Shown one piece after another: positions 15,001-30,880 of a stretch of DNA of 64,000 bases (position 1 is its first letter; each line of letters opens with the position of its first letter). A program made the translations under genes and the position numbers. The stretch spans positions 2,170,001 to 2,234,000 of the forward strand of contig NZ_CP107960.1 of assembly GCF_036077095.1 (NCBI RefSeq), read 5' to 3'. This DNA is from Streptomyces sp. NBC_00376 (lineage in GTDB: Bacteria > Actinomycetota > Actinomycetes > Streptomycetales > Streptomycetaceae). The notes under the pieces were generated by a model, which had not been told where the DNA came from, ran no database searches, and was given only the letters and a program-made list of their open reading frames with translations.

Positions 15001-15816
15001 AACACGCACATCCGCATCCACAACCTCATGGAACAGACCCGCCGTCAACCACATCACACTCACACCATGAACACGAACAAACCCCCCCAACTCCTCCACC
15101 GACAACACCCGCTCCACCGACACCGCAAGAGCCGCACCATTCAGCAGCGCACCCCACACCTCCAGAGCACCCGCATCAAAGGACAGAGTGCTCAACTGAG
15201 ACACCACATCACTCGCACGAACACCGAAATTCGGATCACGCACCACCCGAACAAACCCCTCGTGCGGCAGAACCACACCCTTCGGACGACCCGTCGAACC
15301 CGACGTGTAGAACACATACGCCGCACTCTGCGGAAACAGGGTGACCTGCGGCGCGGTGGTGTGCCGGGTATCGAGGCCGAGGTTCTCCCAGCACACCGCC
15401 CGGCCGCCGGTGGCGACGACCGTCTCCGCGGTCGCGGCCTCGGCGAGCACCACGTCCGCGCCCGAGTCGGCGACCATGAACTCCAGCCGGTCCAGCGGGT
15501 ATTCGGGGTCGAGCGGCACCGCTGCCGCACCCGCCTTGAGCACCCCGAGCAGGGCGACGACAGGGCGTATGCCCCGGTTCAGGCAGATACCGACGCGGGA
15601 TCCGGGCACAACGCCCTCGTCCAGCAGCGCGTGCGCCAGCCGGTTGGCCCGGGCGTCGAGCTCCGCGTACGACACCCGTTCGCCGGCACACACCACGGCG
15701 GGCGCGTCCGGTGTGCGCACCACCCATTCGCCGAACACCTCCGGGAGCACCACATTCCCGAAGCCACCACCCTGCGAAGCCAACGACCCCAGCACCCGAA
15801 CCACTCCCCCATGCAT
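1..15816 (-). CDS. Multimodular non-ribosomal peptide synthetase, C-terminus outside the window
   Basis: One minus-strand frame stays open from ATG 15816 to the left edge. The phase was checked at five adenylation A3 motifs (RPKG proline codons begin at 15285, 12117, 7716, 3294 and 156, all in the same phase). Order: A1-T1 (T Ser about residue 572); C2-A2-T2-E2 (C2 HHIVTDG about 758, T2 Ser 1608, E2 HHMVVDG 1770); C3-A3-T3-E3 (HHLLLDG 2226, Ser 3081, E 3240); C4-A4-T4 (3696, Ser 4554); C5-A5 (HHIVMDG 4743, A5 cut by the edge). There is no starter C domain, so A1-T1 loads the first residue. Hand-read specificity residues: A1 D-A-L-W-M-G-V-I-M (hydrophobic type); A2 D-V-A-E-L-G-V-V-T (E278, Orn-like, weak); A3 D-V-W-H-F-G-L-V-D (serine type); A4 D-V-F-S-V-A-I-V-Y (unassigned). 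Epimerases predict D residues 2 and 3. No Shine-Dalgarno precedes ATG 15816; GTG 15795, behind GGGGGAG, is an alternative start. Frame and domains are seen; substrates are inferred. Confidence 0.95.
5463..6297 (-). repeat. Intragenic NRPS repeat, copy in module 3 epimerase
   Basis: About 835 bp covering most of the E3 domain is nearly identical to 9873-10707 in E2, at an offset of 4410 bp. I saw three differences (near 5713, 6118 and 6236). Further matching blocks at almost the same offset are 4091-4456 with 8495-8860 (C4 and C3), patches of 4789-5300 with 9199-9710 (E-C junctions), and 6494-6723 with 10913-11142 (T3 and T2). This is the signature of module duplication with later gene conversion, and also a spot where an assembly could collapse. 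Confidence 0.9.
9873..10707 (-). repeat. Intragenic NRPS repeat, copy in module 2 epimerase
   Basis: Partner of the 5463-6297 repeat; it covers most of the E2 domain. Identity starts at the FNYLGR motif region and stops abruptly upstream of the HHMVVDG motif on the protein's N-terminal side. Flanking stretches diverge sharply and then match again, giving a patchwork. Confidence 0.9.
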
Positions 15817-15883
15817 AGAAGTCAAAAAATTCAGACGAAAGAAAAGCGATCCGGACACGGAATTCGCGCTCCGGAAAGAGAAA

Positions 15884-17281
15884 TCAGCCGAGGAGGCCGA
15901 TTCCCTCCCGCACCTGCAGCCGCCCACCGCTCATATACATTCCGCCGACCTGTCCTGTACGGGAATCCCGCACGAAGCAGTACAGGTCCTTGGATTCGTC
16001 GCTGCCGTGTCCGGCCTCGACGGATTCACTCTTCAATCGGAATTCCAGGCCCTGATGGAGTTCCAGCCGGGCCGGCCGCAGCCCGCCGCGGTCCATCAGC
16101 AATTCCCCGTGGTCGGCCCGGCGGACGGTGAGGAGGTCCGTGCCGGACCGGTATTCCCCGCACACCTCGGCCGCGGCGGCGTCCAGCGCGGAGCCGGAGA
16201 GCGGCCGGCCGAGGTCGGGCGCCTCGGCCCGGCCGACGTCGAAGCCCTTCGCGGCGAGCGCGTCGAAGAAGGCGTGGCCCATCTGGCGGCCGGAGGTGGC
16301 ATTCGTCATCAGGGCGACCCCGATGCCCCGCCCGGGGTCGAAGCGCAGGGCGCAGCTCGCCCCGCCGGTGTTGCCGTCGTGGCCCAGCCAGCGCCGGCCC
16401 GCACCGTCGGTGTGGACGGCGAGGCCCAGGCCCCAGCCGTCCGCCAGTCCGAACGCCGCCGAGCCGGGTACCGGGGTGCGAAGTTCGGCGAGCAGTCCGG
16501 GCTCCAGCACCGTGCTGCCGCCGGGCGCGAGATGGACGGCGGCGTAGCGCAGCAGTCCGGTCGCGCTGGACATCAGGGCTCCGGCGGGCACCAGTGCCTT
16601 GGGCAGGCCCGGCTCGTCGACCTGCTGCACCGATCCGGTCGGCAGATGCACCGCGTGCTGGCCGGCCACCGGTCCGGGCGCGGCGGCGCCGAGAAATCCG
16701 GGCTCGACACCGAGCGGGGTCAGCACGAAGTCCCGTACCGCCTCCCACCAGGTCACTCCGGTCACGGATTCGAGGATCCGGCCGGCCAGTACATAGCCGA
16801 GGTTCGCGTACGAGAAGTGTTTGCCGGGCTCGCACACTGCGGGCGCGCCGGCCGACGCGGCGACACAGTCGCGCAGTGCGAGGTCGTCCTCGACGGGCGG
16901 CATGTCCGGCAGGCCGGCCGTGTGGCTCAGCAGCCGGCGCGGGGTCGCGGTGTACAGCGGGCTGTCGGGACTCCCGGCCAGTTCGGGCAGCAACGGCCCT
17001 ACCGGCTCGTCCAGTTCCAGGTCGCCGTCGCTGACGAGCTGTGCCAGCAGCAGTGCGGTCGCGGACTTCGTCACCGAGCCCCACGGGAATACGGTGTCGG
17101 CCGTGACCGGCCGGCCCGACCCGTAGGTCTCTTCTCCGTATTCGAAGGAGGAGATCACTCCGCGCTCGTAGACAGCGAATTGCACACCGGGTGCAAGGTA
17201 TTCGCGGGCGAGCGTATCGAGCAGCCCGGCCACTTCGCCGTGCGCGGGCAGCTCCATGGGAAATTCAGCGGATTCCGTCAT
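15884..17281 (-). CDS. PBP/beta-lactamase-fold serine hydrolase, candidate stand-alone peptide cyclase (SurE-like)
   Basis: 465 residues from ATG 17281; a TTG at 17299 would add six residues. Class C beta-lactamase/penicillin-binding-protein motifs are present: S69-V-T-K72 (SxxK), Y158-A-N160 (YxN) and H301-D-G303 in GHDGNTGG. The C-terminal ~100 residues form an extra domain after the hydrolase fold. No signal peptide is evident, which fits a cytoplasmic partner of an NRPS rather than a cell-wall enzyme. The NRPS start lies 67 bp downstream on the same strand, so the two are probably co-transcribed. Known family context: SurE-type PBP thioesterases sit next to NRPSs that lack their own TE domain and cyclise peptides with a D residue at the C-terminus. 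Whether this NRPS lacks a TE cannot be seen here. The alternatives are a D-amino-acid peptidase or a resistance esterase. Confidence 0.8.
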
Positions 17282-17512
17282 CAGGTCCACCCAGGTCAAT
17301 GAATAAGCGCCAGGCTAGCGACACCTCTATGCAGGGACCAAAGAGCTAAAGCCAGGAGTTAAACGGGCAGGTGGGCAGGTTATCGGACAGCGGACCGAGC
17401 AAAACCGGCCATGGTGTAGCTGGCTCCACCTTCATTACGGGATTCAGGGGGTTCGCCGCACATCATCTCTTCCCATAGTCTGATGCCGCTGACGAACGGG
17501 AGGGCGAGAAAT
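17282..17512. promoter_or_regulatory. Divergent promoter region between the NRPS operon and the ABC exporter
   Basis: The 231 bp separate the PBP-type hydrolase (minus) from the ABC ATPase (plus). The stretch 17300-17380 is richer in A/T than its surroundings, as expected for promoters. I could not assign -35/-10 boxes with confidence. Confidence 0.4.
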
Positions 17513-18286
<774 letters not shown>

Positions 18287-18297
18287 GGCGGCCGAGA

Positions 18298-20856
18298 ATG
18301 TTCGACATCGCGTGGAGCACCATCAAGAAGCGCAAGGGCGGGTTCATCGCGGCGTTCATCGCCGTGTTCTGCGGCTCCGCCGTCGTGACCGCCTGTGGCG
18401 TCCTGCTCATGTCCGGTCTGCTGTCCGGGGTTTCGCCCGAGCGGTACGCGGGCGCCGCAGTGATGATCGGCGGCAACCAGAGCCGAGAGGTCGCGCAGAA
18501 CTTCGACCCGCACTACGCGGAGCGGGTCACCCTGCCGGCCTCGCTGACCGCCGAGGTCGCCGAGGTGCCCGGCGTACGGGCGGTCGTCGGCGACCGAACG
18601 GTCGGAATGAGTATCGCCGACCGCAAGGGCCGCACCCTGTCCCTCGACCACCCGCTGTTCGGACACGGCTGGGCCTCCGCGGCACTCGGCCCGTTCACCC
18701 TCGCCGAGGGAGCCGAGCCGCGCGGCGAGGGCGAGGCTGTGCTGGACACCGCGCTGGCCGGCAAGGCCGGGGTGAAGGTCGGTGACACCGTACGGCTGTC
18801 GGTCGGCACCACCCCGGCGAGCTACCGGGTCGTCGGCCTGGCCGCGCCGTCGAAGGCCGGCCTGAGCCGCCAGTCGGCGGTGTTCTTGACGGATGCGCGG
18901 GCAACGCAGCTCTCTCAGCGTCCGGACCGGCTCACCGCGATCGGCGTGCTCGCCGAGCCGGGTACGGACGCGGACGCACTGGCCGGCCGGATCGAGAAGG
19001 CGCTCGCGGGCTCCCGGGAGCCGGTCGCCGTCCACACCGGAAAGCAGGTCGGTGACCTGGAGTTCCTCGACATGGGGCAGTCGCGCGGTTTCCTGGTCGC
19101 GCTGTCCGCCTCCTTCGGCGGCACCGCTCTCGCCGTGGTGATCTTCGTGGTCTCCTCCACACTGGGCCTGGCCGTCCACCAGCGTCGCCGCGAACTGGCC
19201 ATGCTGCGCGCCATCGCCGCCTCGCCCCGCCAGATCCACTCACTGATCGGCAGCGAGATCCTGATGGTCGCGGCGGCCGGTGCCCTGCTCGGCGCCGCAC
19301 CCGGCTTCCTGATCGCGGGCGCTCTGCGCGACGCGTTCGCCTCCGTCGGAGTGCTGCCGGGCGACTTCGAGCTCTCGTACAATCCGGCTCCGGCCGGGGC
19401 GGCCGTGGTGCTGTGCGTGCTAGGCGCCCGGCTGGCCGGCTTCATCGCGGCCTTCCGCACCGCCAGGATCCAGCCGGTGGAGGCGCTGCGCGAGTCGCAG
19501 TCCGAGCCGCCGCGGCTGGGCCGGGTCCGGCTGAACGTCGGCCGCGGGCTGATCGTGCTCGGTCTCGCGGCGGCCGTCGTGCTGCCTGCGGTGATCCCCG
19601 GTCAGCTGGCGATCGCCGGTGCGGCCGGCTCACTGCTCATCCTGATGTTCGGCTGCGCGCTGATCGGCCCCCAGCTCGTGAAGATCACGGCAGCGATGAT
19701 GGCACCGCTGCTGCGCAGTTTCCGGATCAGCGGCTATCTGGCGGTCGCCAACACCAGTGCCAACTCGCGTCGGCTCAGCAGCGCCGTCGTCCCGCTCGCG
19801 CTCGGCGCGGCCATGGCCCTGATGCAGCTCTCCACCCTCTCCACGGTCGAGGCGACCGCCGCGAAGCAAGCCGCGACCGGCGTCGTCGCGGACTACGTGC
19901 TGACCAGTGACTCCACCGGGCTCTCGACCGAACTGGCCGATTCCGTAAGGGCGGTTCCGGGCGTCGCCACGGCCACCCCCGTGGCCCGCTCCCAGGTGAT
20001 GCTCAACTACCTGGAGGTGGACAAGATGGCTGCCCGTCCCTTCAGCGCCGAGGGCATCGACCCGCGCGGCATCGGCCGCACCCTCGACCTGGATGTGCGC
20101 GAGGGAAGCCTGGACGCGTTGACCGGCGACACCGTGGCGCTCAGCTGGATGGCCGCCGACACCGCGGGGCTCGGCATCGGCGACACTGCCGACGTCAACC
20201 TCGGCGACGGCGTCAGGAAGAAGCTCAAGGTGGTGGCCGTCTACGGCAACGGACTCGGCTTCGGCGACGTCACCCTCCCGCACGGCATGCTGACGGCGCA
20301 CACCACCGACCGGCTCGATGCGGCCCTGCTGGTGACGGCGTCGGACACCGGCGACCGCGACCGGGTGGGGAAGGCCCTGGCCGAGCTCGCCCAGCGCACT
20401 CCGACCCTGAAGGTGCAGCAGCCGGACGAGTTCGCGGCGGTCCAGCAGGGCCAGTTCGCCCAGCAGTCGTGGACCAATCTGATCGCCAACTCCCTGCTGC
20501 TGCTCTATGTACTGATCGCCGTGGTGAACACCCTGGTGATCGCGACCATGGCGCGCAGCCGCGAGTTCGCCATGCTTCGCCTGATCGGGACCAGTCGGCG
20601 ACAGACCCTGCGGATGATGTTCCTGGAGTCCTGGGTCGTGGTGGTCACGGCGATCGTCGTCGGCGTCCTCATCGCCGTCCCGCCCACGATCGGCAGCAGT
20701 CTGGCCATGACCGGCCAGGCCATGCCGCACGTGGACCCGCTGGTCTGGGCGGGAGTAGGGGCCTTCATCGCCGTGCTCGGCTGGCTCTCCATCGCCCTGT
20801 CCACGCGCTCGGCCCTGCGTACCCGCCCGATCGACGCGGTGTACACGGGTGAATAG
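18298..20856 (+). CDS. ABC transporter permease, two FtsX domains
   Basis: 852 residues. An N-terminal membrane segment (about residues 18-40) is followed by a large extracytoplasmic region, a first FtsX-type bundle (about 260-390), a central pair of membrane segments (about 415-460), a second extracytoplasmic region (about 520-710), and a second FtsX bundle to the C-terminus. The motif ELAMLRAIAASPRQ in the first bundle reappears as EFAMLRLIGTSRRQ in the second, which shows the internal duplication. The family couples ATP hydrolysis to movement of hydrophobic or peptide molecules at the membrane surface. Partner of the preceding ATPase. A 16-bp inverted repeat follows the stop. Confidence 0.92.
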   Translation: MFDIAWSTIKKRKGGFIAAFIAVFCGSAVVTACGVLLMSGLLSGVSPERYAGAAVMIGGNQSREVAQNFDPHYAERVTLPASLTAEVAEVPGVRAVVGDRTVGMSIADRKGRTLSLDHPLFGHGWASAALGPFTLAEGAEPRGEGEAVLDTALAGKAGVKVGDTVRLSVGTTPASYRVVGLAAPSKAGLSRQSAVFLTDARATQLSQRPDRLTAIGVLAEPGTDADALAGRIEKALAGSREPVAVHTGKQVGDLEFLDMGQSRGFLVALSASFGGTALAVVIFVVSSTLGLAVHQRRRELAMLRAIAASPRQIHSLIGSEILMVAAAGALLGAAPGFLIAGALRDAFASVGVLPGDFELSYNPAPAGAAVVLCVLGARLAGFIAAFRTARIQPVEALRESQSEPPRLGRVRLNVGRGLIVLGLAAAVVLPAVIPGQLAIAGAAGSLLILMFGCALIGPQLVKITAAMMAPLLRSFRISGYLAVANTSANSRRLSSAVVPLALGAAMALMQLSTLSTVEATAAKQAATGVVADYVLTSDSTGLSTELADSVRAVPGVATATPVARSQVMLNYLEVDKMAARPFSAEGIDPRGIGRTLDLDVREGSLDALTGDTVALSWMAADTAGLGIGDTADVNLGDGVRKKLKVVAVYGNGLGFGDVTLPHGMLTAHTTDRLDAALLVTASDTGDRDRVGKALAELAQRTPTLKVQQPDEFAAVQQGQFAQQSWTNLIANSLLLLYVLIAVVNTLVIATMARSREFAMLRLIGTSRRQTLRMMFLESWVVVVTAIVVGVLIAVPPTIGSSLAMTGQAMPHVDPLVWAGVGAFIAVLGWLSIALSTRSALRTRPIDAVYTGE

Positions 20857-21073: not shown

Positions 21074-21292
21074 TCAGGCGGCGGCCTGTTCCATCGCGCT
21101 GATGAGGCTGGCCGGCCGCATGTCGGTCCAGTTCTTCTCCACGTAGTCCAGACAGGCCTGGCGGCTCTCCTCGCCGAACACGATGGTCCAGCCGTCCGGA
21201 ACTTCGGCGAAGACGGGCCAGAGCGAATGCTGGTTCTCGTCGTTCACCAGAACGTAGAACGTGCCGTTGTCGTCGTCGAACGGATTGTCCAT
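21074..21292 (-). CDS. MbtH-like NRPS chaperone
   Basis: 72 residues. The family pattern is complete: [14 protein letters not shown], then [17 protein letters not shown]. MbtH-like proteins bind adenylation domains and are often required for their folding and activity. GGGGAG lies upstream of ATG 21292. It is separated from the NRPS by the oppositely oriented ABC genes, so it has its own promoter in the 155-bp gap it shares with the hydrolase gene. Its client is inferred to be the NRPS at 1-15816. Confidence 0.95.
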
Positions 21293-21447
21293 GAGTCTCC
21301 CCTTCGGTCGCGCCGATCGTGACCCCTCCGGTCCGGGCGGCGCAACGATTTAAGGCACGACCAAAACACGTGGTCCCTCCCGTACCCGGCCGATTACGTT
21401 GCCGAGCCGGAGCCACCCGGTTCCACGGCGCAGAGGAGGGCGTGACC
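21293..21447. promoter_or_regulatory. Divergent promoter region, mbtH and alpha/beta hydrolase
   Basis: 155 bp between divergent genes, including a comparatively A/T-rich stretch (about 21345-21375). No boxes assigned. Confidence 0.35.
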
Positions 21448-22254
21448 GTGCCGGTCAGCACAATCAACGGAATCAGCCTCGGCTATGAAGTCACCGGCCG
21501 CGGTGAGCCGGTGGTGATGGTCATGGGCACCGGGGCGAGCGGCCGCGTCTGGCATCTGCACCAGGTACCGGCGCTCGTGGCGGCGGGCTACCAGGTGGTC
21601 ACCTTCAACAACCGGGGTGTCCCGCCCACCGACGCCTGCACCGACGGGATCACCATCGAGGAGCTGGTCGCGGACACCGCAGGCCTGGTCGAACACCTCG
21701 GCCTGGGCCCCTGCCGGTTCGTCGGCACCTCGCTCGGCGCGCACATCACCCAGGAGCTGTGCCTGGCGCGCCCGGACCTGGTGACGGCGGCGGCGCTGCT
21801 CGCGACCCGGGGCCGCAAGGACGCGATGCGCCGGTTCCGCGACCTCGCCGAGCGGGAGTTGCACGACAGCGGGGTCACCCTTCCGGCGCGCTACACCGCG
21901 ACCGTACGGGCGATGGAGTTCCTCTCCCCGGCGACGCTCAACGAGGACAAGGAGATCCAGGACTGGCTCGACCTGTTCGAGGTGTCGCCGGTCTCCGCGG
22001 CACCCGGATACCGGGCTCAGCTCAGCATCGGGATGGCGCCGGACCGGCTGCGTGCCTATCAGGCGATCCGGGCGCGCTGCCTGGTGATCGGCTTCGCCGA
22101 CGACCTGGTTCTCCCTCCGCATCTGAGCCGGGAAGTCGCCGACACCATCCCGGGTGCCCGGTACGTCGAGATCGAGAATGCCGGTCATTACGGCTACATG
22201 GAGCGCCCGGACCGCGTGAACGCCGAACTGCTGCACTTTTTCGCGCGGAACTGA
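21448..22254 (+). CDS. Alpha/beta hydrolase
   Basis: 268 residues from GTG 21448, chosen because GAGGAGGG ends 8 nt before it; GTG 21442 is too close to that site. The nucleophile elbow is GTSLG with S95. The likely acid is in GFADDLVLPP and the histidine in NAGHYGYMERP near the C-terminus. No signal peptide. Substrate unknown. Before the IS insertion its TGA stop (22252-22254) was followed directly by the ribosome site of the B3/B4 gene, so the two genes were an operon. It may therefore belong to the RiPP locus, for example in leader processing or ester hydrolysis, but it also borders the NRPS locus. Confidence 0.85.
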   Translation: MPVSTINGISLGYEVTGRGEPVVMVMGTGASGRVWHLHQVPALVAAGYQVVTFNNRGVPPTDACTDGITIEELVADTAGLVEHLGLGPCRFVGTSLGAHITQELCLARPDLVTAAALLATRGRKDAMRRFRDLAERELHDSGVTLPARYTATVRAMEFLSPATLNEDKEIQDWLDLFEVSPVSAAPGYRAQLSIGMAPDRLRAYQAIRARCLVIGFADDLVLPPHLSREVADTIPGARYVEIENAGHYGYMERPDRVNAELLHFFARN

Positions 22255-22261
22255 GAGGGTG

Positions 22262-22666
22262 TTAAGTCCGTTTCTGGTAGCGGCCGCGTCCGGGTTGTTC
22301 GAGGAGTCCCTGGCGGACGAGTCGGCCCAGGCGGGAGCGGGTGACGTTGATCGAGGGCTCGTCGGTGGGCAGGCCGAGGTGCTCGTGCAGATCGCGGACG
22401 CGGAACACCTTCCCGGGGTGCTCGTTGAATGTGGTCACGATGCGCTGGTAGACGGTGGCGGTGGCGGTTTCCGCGGGGGCCGCTGCGTGGTCGGGAGGGA
22501 TGAGGCCGTCGATGACCTTGCGGGTGGCGGCGAGCTCGGCCACGCGGGCTTCGGTCTCGGCGAGGGCGGTGGTGAGCCGCTCGATCTGCTCGCGTAGGTT
22601 GTCGGCTCGTGCGGCGGTCTCGTCGTGTTCGGTCTGCAGCAGCCGCAGGAGTTCGCTGATGTTCAC
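22262..22666 (-). CDS. IS accessory protein, coiled coil plus winged-helix-like domain
   Basis: 134 residues. GTG 22666 overlaps the transposase stop (GTGA), so translation is coupled. The first ~50 residues are heptad-like and charged (ISELLRLLQ to RVAELAATRK), consistent with a coiled coil. The C-terminal half (VYQRIVTTFNEHPGKVFRV to VRQGLLEQPGRGRY) looks like a winged helix. It ends 7 bp inside the left IS end. It resembles no transposase part; a DNA-binding helper or regulator of transposition is a guess. Confidence 0.75.
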   Translation of the reverse strand: MNISELLRLLQTEHDETAARADNLREQIERLTTALAETEARVAELAATRKVIDGLIPPDHAAAPAETATATVYQRIVTTFNEHPGKVFRVRDLHEHLGLPTDEPSINVTRSRLGRLVRQGLLEQPGRGRYQKRT

Positions 22667-23538
22667 GCGGCCAGCTCGATCTCGTCCCGCCAGACGGGGC
22701 TCGGGACGGTGAGGCGCCGGAGCATGCCGGCGGTGGAGGCCCAGTAGACGCGGGAGGCCGCGTTGTCGGGCCGGTGATCGTAGTCGCGGGCCAGGCGCCG
22801 GTGCAGCATGAGGGTGCCGTTGACCTGCTCGACCACCCACCGCTTCGGTTGCGGGACGAAGCCTTTGCCCTTGTCGTCGGGGTTGCGTCGGACCACCTCG
22901 ACGGTGATGTCCTTCACCGCCCCGTGGATGATCACGGCGTCTTTGAAGCCCTGGTCGACGAGGACTTTTTCCAGGCGCATCCCGCATCGTTCGGCTGCCT
23001 GGTCCAGCAGGGCGATGCCGGCCTCGTTGTCGTGCGCGCTCGCGGCGAAAATCACCACACCGATGATCAGGCCCAGCACGTCCACGGCGAGTCCCCGCTT
23101 CCTGCCGGGCGTCTTCTTGTTCGCGTCCAATCCCGTCGTCTCCCTCGGCACCCCGGCCGCCACGCGGACGGACTGGGTGTCGATGATCACCAGGGACGGG
23201 TCCTCTAATCGTCTGGACCGCTCCCGCACCTGGCAGCGCAGGATCTCCTGGATCCGCTGGTCAAGGCCATCCTGGCGCCACAGGGTGAAGTAGTAGAACA
23301 CCGCCGACCAGGCCGGGAGGTCGTGCGGCAGGAGCCGCCACTGACAACCCGTCCGGTTCTGGTAGAGCAGCGCGTTCACGACCTCGCGCAGGTCACAGGA
23401 GCCCGGGTCCCCGGTCGCCGACCGCGCCACCCGCTCCTGCTTCCACGCGGTGACCAGCGGCTCGATCAACGCCCATTGCCCGTCGGACAAGTCAGTCGAG
23501 TACGGCATCCGTTCCATGCCCGCGACCCCATCATGCAC
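22663..23538 (-). CDS. IS5-family transposase (DDE)
   Basis: 291 residues from ATG 23538; ATG 23508 (MPYSTDL) is the start used by many relatives. The N-terminal DUF4096-like part (QWALIEPL, GCQWRLLPHDLPAW) is followed by the DDE core: D in VIIDTQSV, D in LVDQGFKD, and E in VVEQVNGTLMLHRRL. The frame is intact, so the element may be active. Confidence 0.93.
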   Translation of the reverse strand: MHDGVAGMERMPYSTDLSDGQWALIEPLVTAWKQERVARSATGDPGSCDLREVVNALLYQNRTGCQWRLLPHDLPAWSAVFYYFTLWRQDGLDQRIQEILRCQVRERSRRLEDPSLVIIDTQSVRVAAGVPRETTGLDANKKTPGRKRGLAVDVLGLIIGVVIFAASAHDNEAGIALLDQAAERCGMRLEKVLVDQGFKDAVIIHGAVKDITVEVVRRNPDDKGKGFVPQPKRWVVEQVNGTLMLHRRLARDYDHRPDNAASRVYWASTAGMLRRLTVPSPVWRDEIELAA

Positions 23539-23636
23539 ACGACATGACGCGAGGGCGGAACTGTCCCATCACCCACGAACGGGTGACACCACACCATCAG
23601 GAACGGGACTTAACGCCCTCTGAAGGAGGGCAAAAC

Positions 23637-24317
23637 GTGTTTGTCAGAACGACCCCGCACATTCACGCGCTCGGCCTTCACCATCCACGTGTCTGGCGGC
23701 TGACCGCCGGCCAGCCGCTGCTGTCGGCGGAGGGGCTGACCGCCACCGAAGCGCTCTCCCACCACGACCCCGACCGACCGTTCCCGGACGGATACCGAAA
23801 ACTTCTGGCCGAGTTGGGGCACCCCTCGGTGGTGCCCGCCGGCGAACGGCTGCGGGAACTCGTGACCGCTCGTGGCTGGAGATCCCATGGCGCGGTCGTG
23901 GATGCGGTGACCGTCGCAACCCTGCGTCACGGAGGCGGAGTCGGGCTGCACAAGGCCCCTCCTGCAGGGGACGGGCAGGACCTGCTGCTCACCCGCGCCA
24001 CGGGGGACGAGCGAATCGTCCCCGCCTTCTCCAGCAAGTCCCGGCCCATTCCCGCCGGTGACCTCGTATACGGCCTGACGCGTGACGGCCGGGCCGTGGA
24101 TCCGCTCGCCTGGCTGGGAAAGCGGGACTGCGACGCAGCCGCCCACCAGCTCGCGGCGGACACGCACGAGGCCCTTCTGGTGGTCCTCGGCTGTCCCGGC
24201 GAGAACGCCGGACACAGCGAGGAGATCGGCGCCACGGTCGCCGAAGTCCTGACATCGGCCCAATTCGATTTGATCATGACGCCGGTTCCACACGGCGCTT
24301 TTGACGCGGATTCATAG
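23637..24317 (+). CDS. Stand-alone B3/B4-domain protein (PheT editing-domain-like)
   Basis: 226 residues from GTG 23637, with AGGAGGG 6 nt upstream. The core (about residues 75-205) follows the pattern of free-standing homologues of the B3/B4 domain of phenylalanyl-tRNA synthetase beta: GAVVDAVTVATLRHGGGVGLH, then PIPAGDLVYGLT, then ALLVVLGCPGE. In the synthetase this domain edits mischarged tRNA; the role of solo versions is mostly unproven. It is next to a candidate RiPP precursor and cyclodehydratase, and before the IS insertion was about 12 bp from the alpha/beta hydrolase. A role in tRNA-dependent chemistry or quality control for the pathway is speculation. Confidence 0.72.
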   Translation: MFVRTTPHIHALGLHHPRVWRLTAGQPLLSAEGLTATEALSHHDPDRPFPDGYRKLLAELGHPSVVPAGERLRELVTARGWRSHGAVVDAVTVATLRHGGGVGLHKAPPAGDGQDLLLTRATGDERIVPAFSSKSRPIPAGDLVYGLTRDGRAVDPLAWLGKRDCDAAAHQLAADTHEALLVVLGCPGENAGHSEEIGATVAEVLTSAQFDLIMTPVPHGAFDADS

Positions 24318-24443
24318 ACTCCGCTCAATTCATGACACGTTCGTCTCTTCACGGCGATTGCGGCACTGCCTGTAAGGTGCTGAGGCCGTGCAGAGCTGCT
24401 TGAGAATCACTCGACAACCATCCCTGGGGGGGATCGAACCACC
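24318..24443 (+). promoter_or_regulatory. Probable promoter region of the RiPP precursor
   Basis: 126 bp before the precursor. TTCACG near 24350 and TGTAAGGT near 24370 are a possible weak -35/-10 pair. Offered only as a guide. Confidence 0.3.
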
Positions 24444-24638
24444 ATGACCAACTCTGTCAACTCATGCAGCCGATTCGGTGAGCAGACTGCCACGGACACC
24501 ATGCACGCCTCGGCACGCGGTCTGATCATCGAGGACCTCGACGGGTCCTCGGAGACGGGCGCCGCGATGCTCTCCATCTGCGTCGTGGCCGCCCCTGCCG
24601 CCACGGCCGTCGCGGCGGCTTCCATACGGTTCGAGTAG
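24444..24638 (+). CDS. Candidate RiPP precursor peptide, 64 residues
   Basis: A G-rich site (CTGGGGGG) precedes ATG 24444. The N-terminal part is polar and ends in an acidic helix-like stretch with IIEDLD, as in leader peptides of azole and thiopeptide RiPPs. A GSSETGAA hinge follows, then a very different hydrophobic tail MLSICVVAAPAATAVAAAS ending in IRFE. The tail contains one Cys, two Ser and one Thr. The fused cyclodehydratase starts 19 bp downstream, a classical gene order. Likely modified residues are the SIC cluster and the Ala-flanked Thr/Ser. The Ala-rich core recalls thioamitide cores, but no TfuA gene is seen. The precursor role is inferred from size, composition and position. Confidence 0.75.
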   Translation: MTNSVNSCSRFGEQTATDTMHASARGLIIEDLDGSSETGAAMLSICVVAAPAATAVAAASIRFE

Positions 24639-24657
24639 AGATCCGGACGGGGGCCCC

Positions 24658-26973
24658 ATGACTCAGCGGGACGCAGAACACACCGTGTCGTCCGGAGGGG
24701 ATGACGGGACGCGGCTCGGCTTCAAGAGCCACCTGCACGCGACCCTCGTTCCCGGGGAGGCCGCCTACCTCGTCTCCCATCGCGGCGTCACGGCACTGCA
24801 CGGCCCACCCGCGGAGGTCCTCGTCCCGTTGCTGGACGGCAGCCGCAGTCCGGCAGCCGTCGTACGCGGGGCGGCCCCGTCGCTGACCCCGGCAGAGGTG
24901 CACGCGTCCCTGCGCGCCCTCGACGCCTCCGGGCTGCTCCGGCTGCGCCCGGCCGGCGCAGCCGGGGCATCCGACGGTTCCCGCCCCGACCTTGCGGCCG
25001 AGGCGTACTGGGACCTGGCCGGCCTCGACGGCGGCCGGGTCCCCGGCGAACTGGCACAGCGCACCCTGCGCGTGGTCACGCCACCCGGCATGGACCGGAA
25101 TGAGCTCCTGGACGCCTGCCGTTCCTCGGGGCTCGCCCTCACCGCACCCGGCGGGGAGGCGGACCTGACCCTCGTCCTGTGCGAGGACTACCTCTCCCCG
25201 CAACTGCACGAGATCGACGCCGAGCACCGTACGGCCGGGCGGCCCTGGCTGCTGGCCGGGCTCGGCTCCACCGCGGCCTGGATCGGCCCGGTCTTCCAGC
25301 CCGGCAACGGCCCGTGCTGGCACTGTCTGGCCACCCGGCTGCGCGGCCACCGGCACTCCGAGGAGCCGCTTCGGCGGAACCTCGGCCTGTCCGGACCGCC
25401 GCCGCGCCCTGCGGCCACCCTCCCGGCAGGCCGGTCCCTGACCGTGCAACTGGCCGTGCTCGAAGCCGCCAAGTGGCTGGCGGGCGTGCGCAACGACACC
25501 CAGAACTCCGTGAACATACTGGACACCCTCCGGCTGGGCGCCGCCGCGCACCCGGTCGCGCGGCTGCCCCAGTGCCCGGCCTGCGGGGACCCCGGCCTGG
25601 TGGCGATGCGGGCCGGCCGGCCGTTCGTACCGCGCTCGCGTCCCAAGACCGTGCTCGGCCTCAACGGCCACCGGGCTCTCACCCCGGCCGAGATGCTGCG
25701 CCGGTACGGCCCGCTGGTCGACCCGGTCACCGGGATCGTCCGGGAGATCCGGCGGGCCCCGGGCAGCCCGGACTTCGTCGACGCCTTCGTGGCCGGCGAG
25801 AATCTCGCCATGCGGAGCCCCACCCTGGCCGGGCTCCGAGCCGGACTGCGCTCGCTCAGCGGTGGCAAGGGCCTCAGCGAGGAAGAGGCCCGGACCAGTG
25901 CCCTGGGCGAGGCGGTGGAGCGTTTCAGCGGCACCCGGCATGGTGACGAGTCCGTCATCCGCGACACCTACCGTGCGCTGGGCGCGCAGGCGCTGCACCC
26001 GAACGCGAGCCAGCTGTACTCCGAGCGGCAGTTCGACGAGCGGAACGAGATAAACGCGCGGGGCGACCGGCTCCAGTACGTGCCGCCGCGCTTCGACGAG
26101 AACCGGCCCACCGACTGGACCCCGGTCTGGTCGCTCACCGAGGGCGTCCGGCGCCTGGTGCCCACCGCCCTGCTGTACTTCAGCGAAGAGCCCTCGCCCG
26201 ACGGCCTGTTCGCCGACTCCAACGGCAACGCGGCCGGATCCAGCCCCGAGGACGCCCTGGTCCAGGGCTTCTTGGAACTGGTCGAGCGGGACGCGGTGGC
26301 CCAGTGGTGGTACAACCGGACCCGGCGGCCCGCCATCGACCTCGACGCCTTCGCGGAGCCGTACATCGACCGGCTCCGTGACGGCTACCGCTCGGTCCGC
26401 CGCGAGGTGTGGGCCCTGGACCTCACTTCCGACTTCGGCATCCCGGTGGTCGCGGCGCTCTCCCGGCGCACCGACAAACCGGCCGAGGACATCGTGTTCG
26501 GCTTCGGCGCGCACTTCGACCCGCGGCTCGCGCTGCGCCGCGCGCTGACCGAAATGGGCCAACTGCTGCCGCTGGTCGGCGAGGTCACCGCAGAGGGCAC
26601 CGGCTACCGGGTCGACGACCCCGAGCCGCTGGACTGGTGGCTGCGTGCCACCGCCGCGAATCAGCCGTATCTGAGGCCCGACGGATCCCGCCCCAGCCGT
26701 CCGGCGGACTGGACGTACACCCCGACCACCGATCTGCGGGAGGACGTCGACCTGATCACCGAGGCAGTCCGGTCGCGCGGAATGGAGCTGCTGGTCCTGG
26801 ACCAGACCAGGCCTGACCTGGAACTTCCGGTAGTCAAGGTGATGGTGCCGGGGATGCGGCACTTCTGGCCCCGGTTCGCGCCCGGCCGGCTCTTCGACGC
26901 CCCTGTGGCGCTGGGGCACCTTTCGAGCCCGACGGAGTACGAACGGCTAAACCCGGTTCCGCTGTTCGTCTAG
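24658..26973 (+). CDS. TOMM cyclodehydratase, E1-like/YcaO fusion
   Basis: 771 residues. Residues about 10-330 are the E1-superfamily partner (ocin-ThiF/SagC-like) that binds the leader peptide. Its zinc cysteines are in CWHC (about 220) and CPAC (about 307). Residues about 375-771 are the YcaO domain with ATP-binding segments LSEEEARTSALGEAVERFSG (about 403-422) and FLELVERDAVAQWWYN (about 537). It ends NPVPLFV, a proline-containing tail like the PxPxP ends of YcaO cyclodehydratases. The enzyme converts Cys/Ser/Thr of a precursor to azolines with ATP. No SagB-type flavin dehydrogenase is seen within the window, so azoles may not form or the oxidase lies elsewhere. Confidence 0.93.
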   Translation: MTQRDAEHTVSSGGDDGTRLGFKSHLHATLVPGEAAYLVSHRGVTALHGPPAEVLVPLLDGSRSPAAVVRGAAPSLTPAEVHASLRALDASGLLRLRPAGAAGASDGSRPDLAAEAYWDLAGLDGGRVPGELAQRTLRVVTPPGMDRNELLDACRSSGLALTAPGGEADLTLVLCEDYLSPQLHEIDAEHRTAGRPWLLAGLGSTAAWIGPVFQPGNGPCWHCLATRLRGHRHSEEPLRRNLGLSGPPPRPAATLPAGRSLTVQLAVLEAAKWLAGVRNDTQNSVNILDTLRLGAAAHPVARLPQCPACGDPGLVAMRAGRPFVPRSRPKTVLGLNGHRALTPAEMLRRYGPLVDPVTGIVREIRRAPGSPDFVDAFVAGENLAMRSPTLAGLRAGLRSLSGGKGLSEEEARTSALGEAVERFSGTRHGDESVIRDTYRALGAQALHPNASQLYSERQFDERNEINARGDRLQYVPPRFDENRPTDWTPVWSLTEGVRRLVPTALLYFSEEPSPDGLFADSNGNAAGSSPEDALVQGFLELVERDAVAQWWYNRTRRPAIDLDAFAEPYIDRLRDGYRSVRREVWALDLTSDFGIPVVAALSRRTDKPAEDIVFGFGAHFDPRLALRRALTEMGQLLPLVGEVTAEGTGYRVDDPEPLDWWLRATAANQPYLRPDGSRPSRPADWTYTPTTDLREDVDLITEAVRSRGMELLVLDQTRPDLELPVVKVMVPGMRHFWPRFAPGRLFDAPVALGHLSSPTEYERLNPVPLFV

Positions 26974-27007
26974 CCCTTTATGCTCTCTGGAAACGTACTC
27001 AAGTTCG

Positions 27008-28285
27008 ATGACGAGACAGATAAGGCTACGCACACACACAACCATGCCACGTCATGACGAGATCGATCCCCTTCAGCCGGCGGCCACACCGGGCAGAGCC
27101 GCGAGCGAGCCGCCCGACGTCGCGGAGCTTCCGGCACCCCGGCTGGCCCGCATCATCCTCACGGTCGCGCTGATCAGCTACCTGGGCGTCACGGTCATCA
27201 ACCTGGTGGGTACCGACCTTCCCACCACTTCGTTACTGACCTCACTCGGCTGCCTGGTCCTCATCTTCGTTCTCCAGCTGAGGCATTCGAGCGCCGCCGT
27301 GCGCAGGGCTCCCGTCCTTCAGCGGAGCCTGACGCTCGGAGCCCAGACGCTGTTGACCTATCTGCCGATCGCGGCCTTCCACTCGCAGTGGGGCGCCATG
27401 GCCGGTTTCCTGGCGGGCTCGCTGCTGCTCCTGTTGCCGAGCCGGTGGGCCTGGCCGGCGTACGGCCTGGTCGGACTGAGCATGCTGATCCCGCCGACCC
27501 TGGACAACCTCTCCGTCCAGGAGACCGTCTACCTGGCGCAGTCGACCCTGCTGACCGGCCTGGTGGTCTACGGACTGTCCCGCATGGCGGCGCTCATCCA
27601 GGCACTGCACGACACCCGCAGCCAGCTCGCGGGCCTGGCGGTGGCCAAGGAACGGCTGCGCTTCGCCCGCGACCTCCACGACCTGCTGGGCTACAGCCTT
27701 TCGGCCATCACGCTGAAGGGCGAGCTGATCCACCGCCTGATCCCCTCCAATCCGCGGCGCGCCCTTGAGGAGGTCAGCGACGTACTCATCATCTCCCGCC
27801 AGTCGCTGGCCGATGTGCGCGTGGTCTCCAGCGGCCTGCGCAGCATGTCCCTGGAGCAGGAGATGCGTTCGGCCCAGTCCCTGCTGGAGGCCGCGGACGT
27901 CAAGGTACGGGTGGACATCCGGCTGGGCACGCTCGACCAGCGGGTCGACTCCGTACTGGCCGCCGTACTGCGCGAGGCCGTGACCAATCTGCTGCGGCAT
28001 TCGCGGGCCGGTACCTGCGCCATGGCGGCGACCCAGGACGGCGACCGGGTGCGGCTGTCCGTGTCCAACGACGGTGTGGATCCCTCGTACCGAGATGTGT
28101 CACCCCACAGCGGCAGTGGTCTGGGCAATCTGCGGGAGCGGTTGCAGTCCGCCTCCGGCGTGCTGACGATCACCCGCGGCCCGGGCGGCACCTTCGAACT
28201 GGTCGCGGAAGCACCGGCGCGACCACCACGCAGATTCGCCGACCCCGACGACGCCGAGTTCGGCGCCCAGGACCACGCCGCCTGA
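27008..28285 (+). CDS. DesK-type sensor histidine kinase
   Basis: 425 residues from ATG 27008; ATG 27044 is equally possible as no clear ribosome site is visible. A polar N-terminus is followed by about five membrane segments between residues 45 and 195 with little extracellular loop. Then comes a HisKA_3 dimerisation helix with the phospho-acceptor His in FARDLHDLLGYSLSA, and an HATPase domain with GSGLGNLRERL. The response regulator starts 18 bp downstream. The gene begins 34 bp after the cyclodehydratase, so it probably belongs to the RiPP locus as regulator or immunity sensor; with so little outside the membrane it should sense a membrane or lipid signal. Confidence 0.92.
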   Translation: MTRQIRLRTHTTMPRHDEIDPLQPAATPGRAASEPPDVAELPAPRLARIILTVALISYLGVTVINLVGTDLPTTSLLTSLGCLVLIFVLQLRHSSAAVRRAPVLQRSLTLGAQTLLTYLPIAAFHSQWGAMAGFLAGSLLLLLPSRWAWPAYGLVGLSMLIPPTLDNLSVQETVYLAQSTLLTGLVVYGLSRMAALIQALHDTRSQLAGLAVAKERLRFARDLHDLLGYSLSAITLKGELIHRLIPSNPRRALEEVSDVLIISRQSLADVRVVSSGLRSMSLEQEMRSAQSLLEAADVKVRVDIRLGTLDQRVDSVLAAVLREAVTNLLRHSRAGTCAMAATQDGDRVRLSVSNDGVDPSYRDVSPHSGSGLGNLRERLQSASGVLTITRGPGGTFELVAEAPARPPRRFADPDDAEFGAQDHAA

Positions 28286-28303
28286 CCCGGGAGAACCTTC
28301 ATC

Positions 28304-28915
28304 ATGACGATCCGCATCCTGCTGGCCGAAGACATGAACATGGTGCGCGGCGCCCTGGTCGCCCTGCTGAACCTGGAGGACGACCTTGAGGTCGTCTGCG
28401 AGGTCGAGCGCGGCGACGAGATCCTCGACGGCGCCCTCCTGCACAAGCCGGACGTCGCCGTCATCGACGTCGACCTCCCCGGCATCGACGGGCTGACCGC
28501 CGCCGAGCGGCTGCGCAAGCAGCTCCCGGAGTGCCGCGCGCTGATCCTCACCAGCCTCGGCCGTCCCGGGGCACTGCGCAGGGCACTCGCCGCGCAGGTG
28601 TCCGGCTTCCTGCTCAAGGACGCGCCTCCCCAGGAACTGGCCGCCGCCGTAAGGAACGTGGCCGCCGGGAAACGGGTGATCGACTCCCAGCTCGCCCTCT
28701 CCGCGTGGAACAGTACGGAGAGCCCGCTGACCACCCGCGAGACCGAGGTCCTGCGACTGGCGGCGGACGGCCTGGAGCCTGTCGAAATAGCCGGACATCT
28801 CCAACTCTCCCTCGGCACCGTCCGCAATTACCTCACCACCGCGGTGACCAAGCTCAACGCCCGGAACCGGGTGGACGCCATCAAGATCGCGCGTGACGCC
28901 GACTGGTTGCTGTAG
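28304..28915 (+). CDS. LuxR/NarL-family response regulator
   Basis: 203 residues. The receiver domain has acidic pair E9-D10, phospho-acceptor D55 (VIDVDLPG) and the conserved Lys in FLLKDAPP. The C-terminal LuxR helix-turn-helix is LTTRETEVLRLAADGLEPVEIAGHL with recognition helix GTVRNYLTT. It pairs with the DesK-type kinase just upstream. Targets are unknown; the precursor promoter region is the obvious candidate. Confidence 0.94.
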   Translation: MTIRILLAEDMNMVRGALVALLNLEDDLEVVCEVERGDEILDGALLHKPDVAVIDVDLPGIDGLTAAERLRKQLPECRALILTSLGRPGALRRALAAQVSGFLLKDAPPQELAAAVRNVAAGKRVIDSQLALSAWNSTESPLTTRETEVLRLAADGLEPVEIAGHLQLSLGTVRNYLTTAVTKLNARNRVDAIKIARDADWLL

Positions 28916-29023
28916 CGCAGTTGCCGCCGTCGCTGCAACGGACACTCGTCAGGTCCGAGTACGAGTATGGGGCCGGGCTTCGGCCGACGGTACCTCGCGG
29001 CTCATATGTCTGGCATGAATCTT

Positions 29024-29677
29024 TCACGTGTGGAATCGCTTGTTCAGGTAGGCGAGGACCGCCAGGACCCGGCGGTGTCCGCTGTCGCTCGGTGGCAGGC
29101 CGAGCTTGTTGAACACATTGCCGATGTGCTTGCTCACCGACCGTTCCGTGACCACCAGTCGGGCCGCGATCGTGGCGTTGTCCCTGCCCTCCGCCATCAG
29201 CTGGAGCACCTCGCGCTCGCGCCGGGTCAGTGAGTCGATCGGGTCGTCCCTGCGTTTCGCGAGGAGCTCCGCCACCACCTCCGGGTCCAGCGCGGTGCCG
29301 CCCGAGGAGACCCGCTCCAGGGCATCGAGGAACTCGTCCACCCGGCCGACCCGGTCCTTGAGCAGATATCCCACGCCACTCGCCCCGCCGCCCAGCAGTT
29401 CGGCGGCGTAGGTCTCCTCGACGTACTGCGAGAGCACGAGCACGGGCAGTCCCGGGATCTCCGCGCGCGCGGCGAGCGCCGCGCGCAGCCCCTCGTCCCG
29501 GAACCCCGGCGGCATCCGCACGTCCAGTACGGCCACGTCCGGTCGGTGCTCCAGCAGGGCGGGCAGCACTTCCGGGCCACTGGCCGCGACCGCCGCCACC
29601 TCGTGCCCGGCGGAGGTGAGGAGCAGTACGAGCCCCTCACGCAACAGGGCGTTGTCCTCTGCGATCACCACACGCAC
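29024..29677 (-). CDS. LuxR/NarL-family response regulator, second system
   Basis: 217 residues: receiver with D52 (VLDVRMPP) and LLKDRV, then a LuxR domain (LTRREREVLQLMAEGRDNATIA). It overlaps the kinase gene by 13 bp, so the two are translated together. It converges with the preceding regulator with a 108-bp gap in which no strong hairpin is visible. Confidence 0.94.
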   Translation of the reverse strand: MRVVIAEDNALLREGLVLLLTSAGHEVAAVAASGPEVLPALLEHRPDVAVLDVRMPPGFRDEGLRAALAARAEIPGLPVLVLSQYVEETYAAELLGGGASGVGYLLKDRVGRVDEFLDALERVSSGGTALDPEVVAELLAKRRDDPIDSLTRREREVLQLMAEGRDNATIAARLVVTERSVSKHIGNVFNKLGLPPSDSGHRRVLAVLAYLNKRFHT

Positions 29678-30837
29678 GGAAGCTCCACTTCGATCGCGGT
29701 CGGCCCCCCGACGGGGCTCGACACCTGCACGATGCCGTCGAGCGCGGCGATCCGCCGCCGCATGCCGAGCAGCCCACTGCCGCCGCTCTCATCGGCTCCG
29801 CCGCAGCCCTCGTCGCACACCGAGATCCTCAACGAGCCGGGGGTGCGCAGTAGTTCCACCCGGGCCCGGCGGGATCCACTGTGCTTGGCGGCGTTGGTCA
29901 GCGCCTCCGCGACCGAGAAGTACGCCGCCGCTTCGACCGCGGCCGGTGCGCGCGCGCCGCCCTCCACACCGTCGTCGGTCACCTCGACCTCCAGACCGCT
30001 GCCGGCGGCGAGCGCCCGTACCGCACCGACGAGCCCGCGGTCGGTCAGGATCGGCGGATGGATGCCGCGCACCACGTGCCGCAGTTCGGTGAGGGCCTCC
30101 TCCACCTGGTCCTGCGCATCGTCGAGCAGCTTGCGGGCTGTGTCGGGACTGTTGTCGTACGCCCTGCGCGCCAGCCCCACCCGCATCGACAGCGCCACCA
30201 GGCGGGCCTGCGTACCGTCGTGCAAGTCGCGTTCGATCCGCCGCAGTTCGGCGCCGTGGGCCGCCATGGCATCCGCTCGGGTGGCCGTCAACTCCTCTAC
30301 ACGGTCCGCGAGTTCGGCGCTGCGCCGGGCGTCGGGCGAGAGGTCCAGCAGGGAGCGGGTCCAGGCGGCGTCCAAGTCGGCGAGCCGGCCGAGAAGCGGC
30401 AGCACCACGGCCCGGTGCCCCAGGACCCAGCACCAGACGCCGTCCACCAGAATGCCGAAGATCCACACGAGCAGCGAGGCGTACGCCAGCAGCCAGCCGT
30501 AGAGCAAGTGGGCGGCCAGCCACCTCAGATCGCGGTACGTCCCGGGGTCCTTGACCGCCGTACGCACCCGAACGGGGAGGTCACCGACGAGCGGTACGTA
30601 CGCCTCGGGGACCTCCTCCCCCGTCCAGTTCGCGACCTCGCGCCGTTTGGCTCCGGCGAGCCGGCGCAGCAGCAGGACCGTTTCGGGCAGGACGCCCGCG
30701 CCGATCACCAGCACGGTGACGGTCACGGTGAACGCCAGCAAGGGCAGGAACAGGAACGAGGCCAGGGCCAGGCCGGCCGATCTCAGCAGGTGCCGCGTCG
30801 CCCGCCATGCGAGCCAGAGCCTCTCTCTCATGGCCAT
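29665..30837 (-). CDS. NarX/DesK-type sensor histidine kinase, second system
   Basis: 390 residues from ATG 30837 (ATG 30831 also possible). It has an N-terminal pair of membrane helices (about 12-50), a linker domain, and a second helix pair (about 105-150) in the pattern of Streptomyces sensor-domain-containing kinases. The HisKA_3 His is in RRIERDLHDGTQARL, and the HATPase has EALTNAAKHS and GSGLLGMRRR. The cytoplasmic linker between helix pairs suggests membrane stress sensing. Divergent from the small membrane protein at 31010, a likely target. Confidence 0.93.
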   Translation of the reverse strand: MAMRERLWLAWRATRHLLRSAGLALASFLFLPLLAFTVTVTVLVIGAGVLPETVLLLRRLAGAKRREVANWTGEEVPEAYVPLVGDLPVRVRTAVKDPGTYRDLRWLAAHLLYGWLLAYASLLVWIFGILVDGVWCWVLGHRAVVLPLLGRLADLDAAWTRSLLDLSPDARRSAELADRVEELTATRADAMAAHGAELRRIERDLHDGTQARLVALSMRVGLARRAYDNSPDTARKLLDDAQDQVEEALTELRHVVRGIHPPILTDRGLVGAVRALAAGSGLEVEVTDDGVEGGARAPAAVEAAAYFSVAEALTNAAKHSGSRRARVELLRTPGSLRISVCDEGCGGADESGGSGLLGMRRRIAALDGIVQVSSPVGGPTAIEVELPCVW

Positions 30838-30880
30838 CAGATTAGGTGACCGACAGGACATGCGAAGGCGTGTGCGCCAC

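Follow-up and report, generated by a model that had tools for sequence, protein, structure and literature searches.

A 64,000-nucleotide stretch of Streptomyces sp. NBC_00376 (NZ_CP107960.1, positions 2,170,001 to 2,234,000), referred to here as the window, contains a compact locus for a ribosomally synthesized and post-translationally modified peptide (RiPP), in which genes for a precursor, a fused E1-like/YcaO cyclodehydratase, a sensor histidine kinase and a response regulator follow one another. Our results support a model, to which we assign a probability of roughly 0.6, in which this set is an autoinduction cassette: an azoline peptide would be sensed by the histidine kinase, and the response regulator would activate the precursor together with a gene for a Streptomyces antibiotic regulatory protein (SARP), and thereby the adjacent polyketide synthase (PKS) or nonribosomal peptide synthetase (NRPS) clusters. 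At the level of sequence, comparison of related loci establishes the conservation of the cassette, the families of its enzyme and precursor, and an operator that is specific to it and positioned at precursor and SARP genes. An earlier sequence-only reading of the window had described the peptide ahead of the cyclodehydratase and a DesK/DesR-type system behind it, and we confirm the locus as observed there (Table 1). Its interpretation is supported in part; the regulatory half, consisting of operator, histidine kinase, response regulator and SARP, which that reading did not see, is in our view what the system is for.

Conservation of the cassette

YcaO homologues (E ≤ 1e-100) were surveyed in 391 sampled genomes of the order of Streptomyces and were found in 104, about one quarter of the sampled order with a more distant clade counted in. 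The compared set comprised 110 loci: 105 of the 109 survey matches with their flanks (the window's own match, G215, G352 and G039:C2 were left out of the fetch), six named contigs and two plasmids, minus three duplicates (L062, L071 and L078, which repeat L003, L004 and L005). Eight loci with a YcaO identity of 38–43% (L105–L112) form the outgroup, and the other 102, with at least 46% identity, are referred to as cassette loci. One of these, L002 from Streptomyces sp. ADI95-17, is near-identical to the window. Genes in the fetched loci were called by an in-house GC-based script, so their starts are rough, and the presence of histidine kinase and response regulator was scored by tblastn (E ≤ 1e-5).

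The window cyclodehydratase matches TIGR03604 at 257 bits (cut-off, 219) and TIGR03882 at 149 bits (cut-off, 36.9), and because both models match one protein, its E1-like and YcaO parts are fused. It resembles LynD, TruD and MusD, with LynD (PDB 4v1t; E = 2e-144) as the best structural match. The locus thus has an E1-like leader-binding part and a YcaO part in one protein, as expected of linear azol(in)e-containing peptide (LAP) or thiazole/oxazole-modified microcin (TOMM) systems. A second expected feature, an adjacent precursor with a leader and a core containing Cys, Ser or Thr, is present in 75 of the 90 loci with intact open reading frames (ORFs) for histidine kinase, response regulator and YcaO, as a small ORF upstream of YcaO that combines an LVIEDL-type motif with a short tail; motif variants were spotted by eye in several of the remaining 15. 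The window precursor (...GLIIEDLDGSSETGAAMLSICVVAAP...) ends 19 bp ahead of the YcaO ORF, and its tblastn matches (E ≤ 1e-5, 40–53% identity) lie at the equivalent position in five loci whose YcaO is 64–75% identical, and in L002. The sequence-only reading had offered to give way if no homologous peptide stood beside homologous cyclodehydratases; such a peptide is instead a regular companion of the enzyme. The core tails are variable, and most contain one or two Cys in a hydrophobic context, of the LFTIC, YGC, CICW or CFC type. Repeated units like those of multi-core RiPP precursors occur in L076, with two leader-core units, and in L117, where four near-identical FTNFTHA repeats upstream of YcaO are useful for delimiting the core.

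Homologues of both the histidine kinase and the response regulator were found in 98 of the 102 cassette loci versus none of the eight outgroup loci, so that the linkage of a two-component system to precursor and maturase, as in two-component RiPP systems, is nearly constant. The response regulator beside YcaO is 63–100% identical in 10 genomes, whereas the best match in 20 genomes lacking YcaO is at most 56% identical. The histidine kinase is a tandem double protein in L089, L090, L092 and L096, and two such proteins are consecutive in L096. The outgroup locus L112 (G059:C11), with a distant YcaO, has a precursor-like ORF and a SARP gene without histidine kinase, response regulator or operator.

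The sequence-only reading had also stated that no dehydrogenase is present. This holds for the window, since TIGR03605 (SagB) had no match anywhere in its genome in a search that was positive in 8 of 14 control genomes, but it fails as a trait of the family. A SagB-type gene is present in 9 of the 63 loci of the first set, in eight of them between YcaO and histidine kinase, and one member was confirmed with TIGR03605 (155 bits). A gene resembling the SagB N-terminal part (fam8) stands alone in 15 of the 63, mostly on the opposite strand behind the response regulator. The window had no match to fam8 below E = 0.05, in a search whose positive control worked, and no SagB-N-like protein was found in a genome search that had no positive control of its own.

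A shared operator and its link to SARP genes

Upstream of the precursor lies a 72-nt element with the consensus.CATGAAAAtTTCAC.c.....t.GTGA.....gCACTGT(N21)CAgAAT. With a position weight matrix fitted on the first 63 loci, the element exceeds 12 bits in 58 of them, and the same matrix gave more than 12 bits in 29 of 39 second-set cassette loci and in none of the eight distant loci. Its core, TGA-N5-TCAY-N9-RTGA-N6-CACTG, occurs with zero, one or two mismatches in 68, 7 and 10 of the 102 cassette loci, so that a conserved operator at the precursor promoter, as expected of a two-component RiPP system, is found in 85. At the same tolerance, the pattern was found in none of 102 shuffled upstream regions (best, 4 mismatches) and in none of the eight outgroup loci (best, 5), and the flanks of the operator carry almost zero information.

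The pattern is also specific at the scale of genomes. Exact matches number 72, in 70 of the 391 genomes, against a single site for the reversed control; positional comparison with the YcaO survey places 66 upstream of a cassette YcaO and one at SagB in L086, making 67 in cassette loci. When one mismatch was allowed in 57 cassette genomes, a site was found in 51 of them and was usually single (reversed control, 2 sites). Some loci carry a second operator above 20 bits: 8 of the 63 in the first set have it ahead of the SagB-N-like gene, and L086 has it ahead of SagB. A tenth extra site, in L088, is unassigned.

The five exact sites remote from YcaO, two in genomes without a YcaO match (G084 and G200) and three in genomes with YcaO elsewhere, bear on what the operator serves. 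In L104, L151 and L152, it lies about 110–165 bp upstream of a SARP gene and faces it, with no YcaO beside, and these sites indicate that the operator can stand directly before SARP genes. In L150, it precedes the histidine kinase and response regulator genes, with a SagB-N-like gene and a SARP gene nearby. In L103 (G385:C4:2513000-2532900), it stands ahead of a SagB-N-like stretch and three large kinase ORFs (796–907 aa, apparently double), with a response regulator and no YcaO, possibly an orphan receptor array. Under the pheromone proposition set out further below, the receptor-only L103 and the operator–SARP-only L104, L151 and L152 would look as if they listen without speaking.

Within the compared set, 70 of the 110 loci (69 of the 102 cassette loci) have a divergent SARP gene on the far side of the operator, mostly 130–240 bp from it as measured to the aligned 5′ end, and 83 loci (82 cassette loci) contain a SARP gene of any placement. 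Weaker copies of the operator facing SARP were also detected; in 26 of 90 SARP upstream regions, the score exceeded the 99.5th percentile obtained from 450 shuffles. In some loci the cassette borders on type II PKS sets and in others on NRPS sets with MbtH, and because the adjoining chemistries differ, its constant part looks regulatory. On plasmid locus L101 (NBC_00335; 17303-21556), a YcaO-like gene, a TfuA-like partner and a further response regulator/histidine kinase pair follow the cassette at a distance of about 1 kb, within a type II PKS set.

Because the cassette is often linked to type II PKS sets that contain AMP-ligase, carrier protein and phosphopantetheinyl transferase-like genes, one might suppose a hybrid pathway in which the modified peptide serves the neighboring PKS or NRPS product as building block or carrier. 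However, the same cassette stands beside unrelated chemistries, NRPS with MbtH as well as type II PKS, and such variety suits regulation better than biosynthesis. A hybrid pathway would also leave unexplained why the histidine kinase, response regulator and operator are conserved and why sensor and core covary (see below), and we give it very little weight indeed.

Covariation of core and sensor, and competing explanations

In the autoinduction model, the cyclodehydratase would bind the precursor through its leader and convert Cys in the short core (Thr or Ser in some relatives) to azoline, with oxidation to azole by a SagB enzyme confined to some relatives. Host functions would cleave and export the mature peptide, and the histidine kinase would detect it through its N-terminal sensor part. 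The kinase would phosphorylate the response regulator, which would bind the conserved pattern just upstream of a -10-like box and activate the precursor–YcaO operon with histidine kinase and response regulator, giving positive feedback. It would likewise activate the SagB or SagB-N-like gene and the SARP gene, and the SARP would then turn on the adjacent PKS or NRPS cluster. Here we infer the chemistry, the binding by the response regulator, the identity of the ligand, and export and cleavage.

If the mature core is the ligand of the kinase, core and sensor should diversify together to a greater extent than shared ancestry alone would produce. Rank partial Mantel tests were carried out on 75 of the 90 loci, the 15 without a motif-bearing precursor being left out. 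Core similarity correlates with the sensor part of the histidine kinase (0.192; 0 of 400 permutations) when YcaO, its leader-binding part, the kinase and the response regulator are controlled for, and it does so with neither the kinase (−0.045) nor the leader-binding part (−0.053). Conversely, leader similarity correlates with the leader-binding part (0.201; 0 of 400) and not with the sensor (−0.072). Recognition of leaders by enzymes and of cores by receptors would be expected to produce such a pattern, although the pattern is not proof of either.

The covariation also bears on two other explanations. The peptide might be an ordinary linear azoline antibiotic rather than a signal, with its own two-component system answering some other stimulus and with SARP and PKS/NRPS genes co-regulated to deliver a cocktail. 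The fused LAP-type cyclodehydratase and the mostly Cys-containing cores fit such an antibiotic well, and the operator would be equally serviceable. Nonetheless, no immunity gene or exporter family was seen to recur with the cassette in the neighborhoods, covariation of core and sensor goes beyond what YcaO, kinase and response regulator account for, and the tandem kinase array of L103, with an operator but no YcaO, resembles a receptor set. We therefore consider an antibiotic role unlikely, though it deserves serious attention. Alternatively, YcaO and the peptide could act inside the cell, for example if the modified peptide bound SARP, response regulator or histidine kinase directly, with no secretion; in favor of this, no exporter or protease recurs in the neighborhood. 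Against it, the covariation is with the N-terminal sensor part of the histidine kinase, as opposed to its kinase part or (significantly) the response regulator, and the multi-core precursors of L076 and L117 suggest released units. We regard it as improbable.

Several observations weigh against the autoinduction model. Partial Mantel tests are liberal when the sequences are related, and the separation that they draw is imperfect: the leader also correlates with the kinase (0 of 400) and with YcaO (2 of 400), and the core gave 15 of 400 with YcaO and 31 of 400 with the response regulator. The core–sensor correlation drops to 0.107 when the CICW group is removed (7 of 400) and to 0.099 for pairs with a YcaO similarity below 0.6 (12 of 300, with an earlier segmentation). 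About ten tails lack Cys (L043, L051, L055, L057, L069, L070, L072, L075, L093 and L117). The loci in which the operator pattern was scored are those from which it had been derived, and 17 of the 102 cassette loci have no operator within two mismatches, some of them looking by eye like spacing variants. Twenty of the 102, including L002, have no SARP match in the fetched stretch, and none was found in the 64 kb of the window, whose operator is itself two mismatches off. Histidine kinase, response regulator or both are missing from four of the 102 (neither was found in L041 and L046, only the kinase in L126, at a contig end, and only a weak response regulator in L142), and a 66% identical response regulator occurs in G281 (L102) away from the cassette, with no operator or YcaO there. 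Finally, neither a transporter nor a leader protease belongs to the conserved genes of the cassette, which leaves secretion of the peptide conjectural.

The window copy, its surroundings and wider significance

The window contains a full set of the four cassette genes (Table 1), but its copy of the switch is reduced, with no SARP found in the 64 kb, a degenerate operator and no SagB-N-like gene; it may therefore be weakly active or rewired. A provisional view that the window lacks the operator was discarded. The precursor site is in register and, at 21.0 bits, has the best plus-strand score of the window (next, −10.0), although it reads CAGAGC where its relatives have the -10-like CAGAAT. Across the 10-Mb genome, three sites were found at up to two mismatches, the window's included, and the reversed control pattern also gave three. 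The best minus-strand score of the window (6.6 bits; next, −0.8) falls at 29029-28958, probably a remnant of a second operator whose SagB-N-like gene is absent. Directly behind the cassette, on the opposite strand, lies another response regulator/histidine kinase pair of a different kind (29024-30861).

Table 1. Coordinates of the cassette and neighboring features in the window
Feature	Position	Strand	Remarks
Precursor peptide, 64 aa	24444..24638	+	Leader motif GLIIEDLD; tail with SICVVAAP
Fused E1-like/YcaO cyclodehydratase, 771 aa	24658..26973	+	TIGR03604, TIGR03882, PF02624; LynD/TruD-like over full length
DesK/NarL-type sensor histidine kinase	27008..28285	+	PF07730 HisKA_3; start codon uncertain; homologue near YcaO in cassette loci
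NarL-type response regulator	28304..28915	+	PF00072 Response_reg and PF00196 GerE; clade largely cassette-specific
Operator/promoter of precursor operon, degenerate	24330..24401	+	Pattern core 24333-24368, 2 mismatches
Probable remnant of second operator	28958..29029	-	Type found at SagB-N-like (fam8) gene of relatives; 6.6 bits
Solo B3/B4-type protein	23637..24317	+	Neighbor outside the conserved cassette
IS5-family insertion	22259..23619		Transposase 22663-23538; outside the cassette
Alpha/beta hydrolase	21442..22254	+	Not a cassette member; goes with MbtH in relatives
MbtH-like protein	21074..21292	-	PF03621; presumably belongs to neighboring NRPS cluster
ABC (ATP-binding cassette) ATPase and FtsX permease	17483-20856		3.8 kb upstream of precursor
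NRPS ORF, open at window edge	1-15927	-

The sequence-only reading was correct in placing a B3/B4 protein and a hydrolase in front of the cassette. The B3/B4 protein has no direct Pfam match, even at E ≤ 10, but PF03483 is present in 4 of its 42 homologues, and some of these are named B3/B4 tRNA-binding; the named homologues are mostly from Streptomyces. Co-occurrence of these two genes with peptide and cyclodehydratase, for which that reading had suggested a search, was not borne out, and we rejected them as parts of the system: the B3/B4 gene recurs in only 1 of the 110 loci, the near-identical L002, and the hydrolase in 5 (one weak), where it accompanies MbtH, itself present in 11. They are neighbors. 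Because L002 carries an empty site in place of the IS5-family insertion sequence, that element is recent, and flanking alignments at the empty site overlap by about 7 bp, a possible target duplication. The earlier statement that no transporter is visible holds for the immediate gene set only, given the ABC ATPase and FtsX permease farther upstream. The ORF at the window edge is assigned to an NRPS because a 3000-aa piece of it contains condensation and adenylation stretches, three of each. Its neighbors include a beta-lactamase-fold gene (15884-17299) and the MbtH gene.

Comparison with known systems indicates that the parts of the cassette are of familiar kinds. In the nisin and subtilin systems (NisRK and SpaRK), a modified ribosomal peptide is sensed by a histidine kinase and induces its own operon through a response regulator. 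The proposed sensing and self-induction are alike, but the cassette peptide would be of the azoline (YcaO) class rather than a lanthipeptide, its operator also serves the SARP gene of a separate PKS/NRPS cluster, and dedicated transporter and immunity genes are not seen with it. In γ-butyrolactone control in Streptomyces, a diffusible autoinducer gates a SARP; there the signal is a small lactone with a cytoplasmic receptor, whereas the cassette would use a modified peptide and a two-component system. The cyanobactin enzymes LynD, TruD and MusD (PDB 4v1t, 4bs9 and 7u58) share the fused E1/YcaO architecture over their full length, and a few relatives of the window precursor are multi-core, as in that family. 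However, precursors and setting differ, and no PatA/PatG-type subtilisin protease was found among the ten window proteins scanned at 18.3–28.9 kb. The same ten proteins include neither TfuA nor a lanthipeptide-like dehydratase, in agreement with the earlier view that the locus is unlike named azole, thiopeptide and thioamitide gene sets. A thioamitide reading prompted by the Ala-rich tail was rejected, given the lack of TfuA among the scanned neighbors and a YcaO of the fused LAP type. According to Cox et al. 2015 (PMC4603692), goadsporin, a Streptomyces azole peptide, likewise has a fused TOMM cyclodehydratase, which is accompanied by a lanthipeptide-like dehydratase and a B protein. The passage on goadsporin in that paper names neither a two-component system nor a SARP; "two-component" and "histidine kinase" are absent from its main text, and its section list has no such family. 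The word YcaO does not occur in two further papers (PMC12224297 and PMC10663231). Among the matches listed from titles and abstract openings of the openly licensed PMC literature, there was no description of a cassette that joins YcaO, a two-component system and SARP. Thus, although LAP enzymes, two-component RiPP autoinduction and SARP control are each known, their combination here and its breadth appear to be new.

A broader proposition, which we hold to be evenly balanced, is that azoline peptides form a widespread, diversified pheromone language across Streptomyces, in which hypervariable YcaO-modified cores, paired with co-diversifying kinase sensors, would govern SARP-driven antibiotic clusters through a single conserved operator. 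Many antibiotic clusters in Streptomyces are silent for want of a known trigger. Should the peptide be such a trigger, many cryptic PKS and NRPS clusters could be awakened with a short predicted peptide or with a response regulator made constitutively active, and the operator motif can already serve as a probe for genome mining. If the model is true, it would give actinomycetes a peptide quorum system with paired diversity of ligands and receptors.

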